Source: Desemzia incerta
Lineage (GTDB): Bacteria; Bacillota; Bacilli; Lactobacillales; Carnobacteriaceae
Direction of reading: 5' to 3'
Assembly (NCBI RefSeq): GCF_900115825.1
Contig: NZ_FOXW01000003.1
Location: 248,001 to 312,000, forward strand
Length of the DNA stretch: 64,000 nt
Part shown: positions 40,436 to 42,397 of the stretch, piece by piece
How the letters are laid out: each line of letters begins with the position of its first letter
Numbering within the stretch: position 1 is the first letter of the stretch
Notes under the pieces: model-generated
Told to the model about the DNA's origin: nothing
The model's database searches: none
The model's input: the letters and a program-made list of their open reading frames with translations, nothing else
Position numbers and translations under genes: made by a program

Positions 40436-41641
40436 TTATTTGCTCAATTTCTGAATCACTTCTTGAATGATACTATCTGCGATGTCTCTTTTTGATCGCA
40501 CAGATAATTCTATAGGTGGGGTATCTTTGGAAAATAACGTAACTTCATTTGTTTCTTTGTTAAATCCTGCATGAGGTTTAGAAACATCATTGGCTACAAT
40601 CATATCCGCATTTTTCTTTTCTAATTTCCCCATAGCATATTCTGCAACATCATGGGTTTCAGCCGCAAAACCAACTAAAAATTGATGACTTTTTTGCTGC
40701 CCCATGGTCGCTAAAATATCTTGCGTTTTAGCTAAAGATATAACCATTTGGTTTTCTTTTTTCTTGATTTTTTGGGTCGCTTGCGTTTCTGGTGTATAAT
40801 CCGACACTGCCGCTGCCATAATAACGATGTCTGCTGATTCGAACTCCTTGAACACAGCATCTGACATCTGCTGAGCAGATTCTACGGCAACAACTTCCAT
40901 TCCAAAAGGGTGTTTTAATTGCGTAGAAGCAGAGATCAACACTACTTTCGCCCCTTTATCTCTAGCAGCCATAGCTAATTGGTACCCCATCTTACCCGAT
41001 GAATCATTCGTAATGTAACGGACTGGATCAATCCGTTCCTTTGTTCCGCCCGCTGTAACAACTACTTTTTTACCACTCAAAGGTAAATCAGTCTGTTGTC
41101 GGATCAAATATTCTTGGATAGCTTCAACAATAGCTTCAGGCTCTGGAAAACGGCCTCTTCCTTCATATCCTTCTGCTAAAAATCCCGTATCTGGTTCCAT
41201 CACAAAATGTCCGTCTTGCTCTAATCGTTCCCAATTTCTGACCGTTGCTGGATTTTCTAACATGTGCGTGTTCATCGCAGGCACAATAAAAACAGGCGCT
41301 GTTGTAGCTAATAAAGTCGTTGTCACAAAATCATCCGCTATTCCATGAGCCATTTTTGCCATAACATTCGCTGTAGCAGGTGCTACAACTGCTAATTCTG
41401 ACCAGTCTGCTAAGTGGATGTGGCTCACTTCAGCTGGGTCTTTATCTTCAAATACATTCGTAAAGACTTCATTTTTACTTAAAATCTGTAAAGTATACGG
41501 TGTAATAAATTCTGTTGCCGCTTTTGTCATGGCGACTCGTACTTCAGCTCCTTGTTTGATCAAACGTCTCACCAAATCAGCTGCCTTATACGCCGCTATC
41601 CCGCCAGTAATGTATACCGCTATTTTTTTCCCTTTTAACAC
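40436..41641 (-). CDS. coaBC: Bifunctional phosphopantothenoylcysteine decarboxylase/synthase
   Basis: A 401-residue two-domain enzyme of coenzyme A synthesis. The N-terminal CoaC flavoprotein half has GGIAAYKAADLVRR, the active-site histidine region VSHIHLADWSELAVVAPATA and PAMNTHMLENPA. The C-terminal CoaB half has VTAGGTKERIDPVRYITNDS, then KKKENQ-type lysines and VGFAAET. It converts 4'-phosphopantothenate and cysteine to 4'-phosphopantetheine. It is separated from rpoZ by a 540-bp repeat-rich gap, although the two genes are adjacent in B. subtilis. Confidence 0.97.
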   Translation of the reverse strand: MLKGKKIAVYITGGIAAYKAADLVRRLIKQGAEVRVAMTKAATEFITPYTLQILSKNEVFTNVFEDKDPAEVSHIHLADWSELAVVAPATANVMAKMAHGIADDFVTTTLLATTAPVFIVPAMNTHMLENPATVRNWERLEQDGHFVMEPDTGFLAEGYEGRGRFPEPEAIVEAIQEYLIRQQTDLPLSGKKVVVTAGGTKERIDPVRYITNDSSGKMGYQLAMAARDKGAKVVLISASTQLKHPFGMEVVAVESAQQMSDAVFKEFESADIVIMAAAVSDYTPETQATQKIKKKENQMVISLAKTQDILATMGQQKSHQFLVGFAAETHDVAEYAMGKLEKKNADMIVANDVSKPHAGFNKETNEVTLFSKDTPPIELSVRSKRDIADSIIQEVIQKLSK

Positions 41642-41790
41642 TTAAAGTCCCCCGATCTTTAAAGCACTTTATCTGTGCATTCTTCTCTATTCTACTAAAA
41701 ATACTTCAGTTTGTCTTCTTGAATAAAAATACTCCAAGGGGATTTTTAAAATGGCTTTTTGCGTATCTCATCGGGTTCATATTCAGCAAG

Positions 41791-41887
41791 CTAAACGCTC
41801 TGCTTTTAAAACGAGCTACGCAAGGCAGCTTACATGTCTATCATCTGGATCTGACCTGTTAGGTAAAACGCCTAACTGGTCAGATCC
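41791..41887. repeat. Palindromic intergenic repeat, copy 1
   Basis: It begins CTAAACGCTCTGC, continues TTTTAAAACGAGCT and ends in a hairpin with arms 41847-41863 and 41871-41887 (GGATCTGACC paired with GGTCAGATCC, then a T-T mismatch and GTTAGG/CCTAAC, loop TAAAACG). Copy 2 lies 204 bp downstream with five substitutions in 84 bp. Confidence 0.85.
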
Positions 41888-41928
41888 TTCTAAAACGAGC
41901 TGGACAGAGCAGGTCTCCTATGGTTTCG

Positions 41929-41975
41929 TTTCCCCTCTTTTATTGGGAAAGACCACCCAATTAAAAGAGGGGAAA
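41929..41975. repeat. Inverted repeat between the two element copies
   Basis: TTTCCCCTCTTTTATTGGG (41929-41947) pairs with CCCAATTAAAAGAGGGGAAA (41956-41975), with one bulged base and an 8-nt loop. No T-run follows on either side, so it does not look like a simple terminator. Confidence 0.8.
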
Positions 41976-41992
41976 TCGAACTCTACGGAACC

Positions 41993-42091
41993 CTAAACGC
42001 TCTCTACTTTTAAAACGAGCTGCGCGAGGCAGCTTACATGTCTATCATCTGGATTTGACCTGTTAGATAAAACGCCTAACTGGTCAAATCC
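41993..42091. repeat. Palindromic intergenic repeat, copy 2
   Basis: This is the second copy of the element at 41791. Its arms read GGATTTGACC and GGTCAAATCC: relative to copy 1 the C-G pair (41851/41883) has become T-A (42055/42087), so pairing is kept. The stem also extends outward here (CATCTGG with CCGGATG). Confidence 0.85.
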
Positions 42092-42131
42092 GGATGCTAT
42101 CCAGTAAGCTGAACGCCTCGCTCCGCTCTCT

Positions 42132-42172
42132 AAAAATAAAAGAGTGGAACATTTGTCTGTTCCACTCTTTTG
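42132..42172 (-). terminator. Terminator after gmk-rpoZ
   Basis: AAAAGAGTGGAAC (42138-42150) and GTTCCACTCTTTT (42159-42171) form a perfect 13-bp stem with an 8-nt loop; on the minus strand TTTTATTTTT follows. Confidence 0.92.
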
Positions 42173-42181
42173 TCTTTTAAA

Positions 42182-42397
42182 TTATACTTCAGGGTCTACG
42201 GTTGTTGGGTCGATGACCAAATCTCCGCTTGCTATTTCTTCTAAAGCTTTTCCTACGTTTTTATACGATTTGTATTCTTCCAACATTGGCATAGCTTTAT
42301 CATCTAATTCGTAAGCTCTTTTACTTGAAACGATGACTAGTGAATATTTTGAATCAATTTTCTCTAGTAATGCGTCTATAGAAGGATCTAACATCAT
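42182..42397 (-). CDS. rpoZ: DNA-directed RNA polymerase omega subunit
   Basis: The 71-residue protein has the short Firmicute omega pattern [28 protein letters not shown] and an acidic tail. Omega helps fold the beta' subunit of RNA polymerase. It lies 5 bp after gmk, the universal arrangement in Firmicutes, and the pair ends at the hairpin at 42132-42172. Confidence 0.95.

Follow-up and report, generated by a model that had tools for sequence, protein, structure and literature searches.

The spacer between rpoZ and coaBC in the Desemzia incerta DNA analysed here (a stretch of 64,000 nt, hereafter the window) contains a repeated palindrome, which raises the question of what kind of element it is and whether its fold acts as DNA or as RNA. 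A first-pass annotation had recorded two copies with five differences over their last 84 bp and a compensatory base change, and had proposed a mobile palindromic repeat, a small RNA or a protein-binding DNA hairpin. The copies are indeed present: 41798-41887 and 42002-42091 align over 90 nt without gaps at 93% identity, and the five differences in the last 84 nt include the stem-pair exchange from C-G (41851/41883) to T-A (42055/42087). A further difference (41863 G, 42067 A) had been read as breaking an inner pair; this proved incorrect, as C.A arises only on the plus strand and the gene (minus) strand has G.U, which stays paired. The repeat is therefore real, but its extent and layout had to be redrawn. 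The true unit is 119 nt long on the minus strand, so that the recorded copies cover the 3' two-thirds of it. The second belongs to a complete unit, whereas in the first the 5' arm is missing, and a unit of a second type separates them.

The array, rpoZ and coaBC all lie on the minus strand, and in reading order the array consists of a complete type-A unit, a type-B unit, a 5'-truncated type-A unit and the 5' scrap of another (Table 1). The complete unit forms a single long hairpin with a 3x3 internal loop, a GTTC bulge (GTTT in most copies), tandem mismatches and a variable apical stem. The type-B unit is damaged, with the 5' strand of its lower stem (the GGAGnnnnGC segment) mostly deleted. 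The order of rpoZ followed by a hairpin is also found at array-empty loci of related genera, and the downstream reading frame is one that we take to be coaBC from the earlier annotation and general knowledge of its sequence. Searches with covariance models R1 and R2 (described below) found this one array in the 64-kb window. It is an older, partly decayed example situated behind the rpoZ terminator and an exception to the stop-codon placement seen elsewhere. Both strands of the region fold far better than shuffled sequences (z -11.8 and -12.3). Since z is about -12 and the element recurs many times elsewhere in the genome, the array is not a chance repeat.

Table 1 Features of the rpoZ-coaBC array in the window, and a unit beside a T-box leader in the two Desemzia genomes
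Feature	Coordinates	Strand	Basis
Complete type-A unit, 119 nt	42013..42131	-	R1 match 121 bits, E 1.6e-29; fold -60.7 kcal/mol
Type-B unit (CCGTAGAGTTCG...CGAAA(T/C)CATAGG core)	41893..42011	-	R2 match 79 bits, E 1.1e-18; sequence
Type-A unit, 5' truncated (first copy of the earlier annotation)	41809..41887	-	R1 match 41809-41918, E 4.4e-8; 93% identical to complete unit
Trailing 5' scrap of a further unit (AGAGCGTTTAGCTTGCTGAATA...)	41770..41801	-	read from sequence
Intrinsic-terminator-like hairpin after rpoZ, upstream of array	42132..42177	-	inverted repeat
rpoZ (RNA polymerase omega), upstream of array	42182..42397	-	ORF; orthologues in 17/18 family genomes searched
coaBC (presumed), downstream of array	40436..41641	-	ORF of 401 aa
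T-box-adjacent unit	L145 3832-3951 (G000 C16); L027 1510-1631 (G015)		

Covariance models were built from copies in two genomes, R1 for type A (28 sequences, 40 pairs) and R2 for type B (11 sequences, 37 pairs). Types A and B are interchangeable cores that alternate freely within a common outer frame, each forming a complete hairpin, and R1 matches are mostly 117-122 nt long. Among 57 distinct Desemzia copies, 95.5% of paired cells hold standard pairs, double (compensatory) changes occur at 39 of the 40 pairs, and the covariation score is 0.646 compared with 0.07-0.11 for slid partners. The alignment behind these figures had been fitted to the model; an earlier, model-independent MAFFT alignment gave double changes at 33 of 40 pairs. 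Compensatory evolution in the family is exceptionally strong. The unpaired parts (AGAG, the GTTT bulge and the TATAAG/CTTATA flanks) are among the best-conserved segments, and no ORF common to the copies is apparent. Paired changes could also be produced without selection on the fold if one arm corrected the other by template switching inside the palindrome, and the Desemzia changes, almost all from one Watson-Crick pair to another with few wobble intermediates, would agree with this. However, simple arm-to-arm correction would erase fixed loops and bulges, whose unpaired sequence persists here while the surrounding stems turn over, and it is also at odds with the G.U bias of other genera (below). 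This explanation, already disfavoured, is very unlikely.

The dispersed copies with paired substitutions that a covariance-model search had been expected to reveal were recovered. Blastn located the element in some 20 places of its own genome (G000), and R1 gave 62 matches there, or about 50 distinct copies after opposite-strand duplicates and the weakest matches were dropped. Desemzia sp. RIT 804 (G015) yielded 145 R1 matches, opposite-strand ones included, corresponding to more than 100 copies. The anticipated relatives beyond the genome were found as well: at the level of the order, R1 detected full-length units in 46 of 295 genomes and 23 of 74 sampled genera, with head-to-tail units separated by linkers of 4-7 nt, and a class-level search added further genera. 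A pairing-independent sequence pattern matched in Levilactobacillus, Secundilactobacillus, Lentilactobacillus, Lactiplantibacillus, Lacticaseibacillus, Companilactobacillus, Trichococcus, Granulicatella and others. Enterococcus-type units were present on plasmids of E. faecium and others (R1 match E 1e-8 to 1e-11), and R1 detected full-length units on plasmids of E. faecium and E. casseliflavus as well as in one record whose host is given as E. faecalis. Blastn of plasmids and phages with the window element gave no matches, and the three pattern matches in viral contigs showed no sign of a phage family. Enterococcus-type units also occur in records labelled as Pseudomonas aeruginosa and Klebsiella pneumoniae plasmids (NZ_CP151545.1, CP069369.1), where mislabelling or contamination is likely, and repeats are contained in unannotated wastewater 'phage' records (OR846588, OR848831 and similar) that are probably bacterial host DNA.

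Gene context was read from stretches fetched around the copies, and genes were called by a simple ORF rule instead of a trained gene finder. In 43 of 56 Desemzia arrays the gene upstream points the same way as the array (p 7e-5). In 35 of 57 arrays the start lies between -25 and +20 nt from a co-oriented stop codon, compared with two in which the other end lies near a counter-oriented stop. The same asymmetry holds across the named genera, where, of 101 cases, 41 have a sense stop at -3 to +14 relative to the start of the unit and 2 have an antisense stop at its 3' end. The first AG of a unit often completes a TAG stop; annotation is affected, as the unit often supplies the stop codon. Part of this adjacency could reflect survivorship of harmless insertions. 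A terminator-like site follows within 170 nt in 15 of 37 stop-adjacent arrays, which would place those units inside 3' UTRs. Stable hairpins after stop codons might themselves suggest a family of bidirectional transcription terminators; this is highly improbable, because the unit ends in CGTTTTAAA without a U-tract and separate terminator-like hairpins often adjoin the arrays. The absence of a U-tract after the stem, where 3' ends read CGTTT(T)AAA, also sets the unit apart from an intrinsic terminator, and the annotation was right that this is not an ordinary one.

Orthologous genes of the two Desemzia species were compared for the presence of units. Some sites are filled in both, and at L138/L317 and L142/L319 the same stop codon carries an A unit in one species and a B unit in the other. 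One of the two species lacks the unit at L135, L137, the second site of L133, L154, L155 and L158. In the cleanest filled and empty pair, GAT/T-unit-AGAGAGCG/TAACAAA compares with GAC/TAACAAA (slashes mark the junctions), allowing a duplication of at most 1 nt (T). A TA duplication was inconsistent across flanks, no target-site duplication was found at the insertions, and no parent transposon came to light. At rpoZ-coaBC, the array is absent in the sampled genomes of related genera, while RIT 804 carries a five-unit array in the opposite orientation to that in the window. A 5' partial unit trails many of the arrays. In RIT 804, a site filled in G000 reads TAAGCGGAGCAGCTAGAG (L296, reverse complement, after position 1728; around G015 C12:450636), as though a unit had lost its hairpin and its two outer ends had joined.

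These comparisons bear on whether the element moves at all. It might be a domesticated RNA element of the 3' UTR with a regulatory or stabilising role, inherited vertically and multiplied through ordinary duplication, as the many sites common to both Desemzia species, the position at stop codons and the combination of G.U bias with covariation would allow. Such a history is unlikely, since many sites are empty in one species, the distribution over genera is patchy and A and B units replace each other at the same stop codon. Conversely, the units could be selfish DNA only, with a recombinase or transposase using folded single-stranded DNA (attC- or IS200-like) so that only folding copies spread and the RNA has no role. 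The insertion polymorphism, the swapping of unit types at sites common to both species, the tandem arrays that tail off into 5' partials and the copies on Enterococcus plasmids all fit this proposal, as does the lack of a G.U excess in Desemzia. However, no Y1 transposase (PF01797) was found in either Desemzia genome or in G251 and G183, no integron-type core sites (RYYYAAC/GTTRRRY) were recognised by eye in the consensus, and the Lactobacillaceae show a strong sense-strand G.U excess. We regard a purely selfish element as a real possibility, if a doubtful one. Orthologous empty and filled sites, and stop codons where the unit type differs between the species, make the choice between selfish DNA and an mRNA-level element directly testable.

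The two mismatch types were used to ask which strand acts, as selection on sense RNA would tolerate G.U and not C.A. Over 126 units found with the pairing-independent pattern, the ratio of G.U to C.A was 139:20, and after clustering, with each position counted once, it was 72:19 (p 2e-8) in a set dominated by Lactobacillaceae. Selection on sense-strand RNA is thus supported in genera outside Desemzia. The corresponding Desemzia ratios were 54:48 for all pairs, 12:24 at isolated type-A positions and 6:20 by contexts at isolated positions. As there is no strand bias among them, action at the RNA level cannot be claimed from the Desemzia copies.

Overall, the element is probably a non-autonomous MITE/BOX-type palindromic repeat of 119-nt units that is transcribed in 3' UTRs and whose fold is under selection. 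This reading draws on dispersal, presence and absence at orthologous loci, orientation, position, constant length and compensatory evolution around conserved internal loops; counted against it are the missing G.U excess in Desemzia, the opposite array of RIT 804 at rpoZ-coaBC and the failure to find a target-site duplication or a parent transposon. The units are placed mostly at or just after stop codons, oriented with the gene, often before an intrinsic terminator and often in head-to-tail arrays. Insertion would spread through a trans-acting enzyme. Each unit would be transcribed as part of the 3' UTR, where selection may see the folded single strand, most likely as sense RNA, and the hairpin probably shields or insulates the mRNA 3' end beside the terminating ribosome. 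The placement and direction of the units suggest mRNA 3' UTRs rather than a stand-alone small RNA, for which no support was found. More speculatively, and rather doubtfully, structured mobile elements of 3' UTRs may make up a superfamily spanning the Bacilli; its members would be aimed at stop codons through the folded single strand and would modulate mRNA 3' ends through the RNA hairpin, and EFAR and perhaps other repeats would be local branches of it.

Among known repeats, those of the BOX/MITE kind fit best. The units lack coding capacity, fold as palindromes and show insertion polymorphism, as expected of MITEs. EFAR (De Gregorio et al. 2009, FEMS Microbiol Lett 292:7-12), known here from its citation in PMC3733652, is a complex palindromic intergenic family of Enterococcus counted among MITEs. 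R1 units likewise occur in Enterococcus DNA, but their family extends far beyond that genus; judged from the citation and these matches, EFAR palindromes and the 119-nt units would probably form one superfamily. BOX elements are modular composite hairpins present in more than 100 copies, often in arrays and in some cases transcribed, which supply the stop codon of 36 genes and have been reported from S. pneumoniae, S. mitis and S. suis (PMC3049150). Compared by description only, both are composite hairpin repeats that form arrays and supply stop codons, whereas module sizes differ. BOX modules follow a boxA-boxB(n)-boxC order; the A and B units are each complete hairpins and alternate freely. 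The bcr1-bcr18 repeats of the B. cereus group (100-400 bp, interspersed) are partly transcribed in UTRs and include mobile (bcr1-3) and structured members (PMC6542083, PMC3446304); set side by side by description, both families are interspersed in Bacilli, but bcr repeats have been described as confined to the B. cereus group. REP sequences are also extragenic palindromes near stop codons, but classical REP/RAYT systems combine repeats of 20-40 bp with a Y1 transposase and are unsupported here, given the 119-nt unit and the lack of that transposase in either Desemzia genome. ERIC, a 127-bp enterobacterial repeat, is a long imperfect palindrome in intergenic regions and resembles the units in length, palindromy and location.

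Within the choice offered by the first-pass annotation, the mobile palindromic repeat in its BOX/MITE-like form fits best, very possibly within a wider EFAR family; a classical REP/RAYT system and a stand-alone small RNA are unsupported. Rfam 15 gave nothing above the gathering score for the window region and eight loci of other genera, only weak sub-threshold matches, and our literature search found no description of this family outside Enterococcus. The analysis joins intergenic palindromes scattered over lactic acid bacteria and bacilli into a single structure-defined family that is absent from Rfam. Unusual about it are its breadth over Bacilli, the placement at stop codons and a 119-nt architecture that stays rigid while the stems evolve freely.

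Several further repeats were observed alongside. A third Desemzia type, AGAGTGGGAAAAAAGGCG...CGTTTACGAAACCAATATTCGTAAAA, occurs at L123, L124, L126 (7617-7733), L127, L128, L131, L136, L140 (6929-7045) and L147, mostly runs into a GGAGCTGGGA...TCCCAGCTCC hairpin and is often opposite to both neighbouring genes. Class-level Bacilli copies (L283-L292) have the form GAAAAGCGGAnnnGCCGTTTAG...GCAGCTGGACA and are tandem at some loci. In both Desemzia species, a unit lies between an apparent T-box leader terminator and the start of a metN-like ABC transporter ATP-binding gene (Table 1), where it may affect the riboswitch-controlled transcript.
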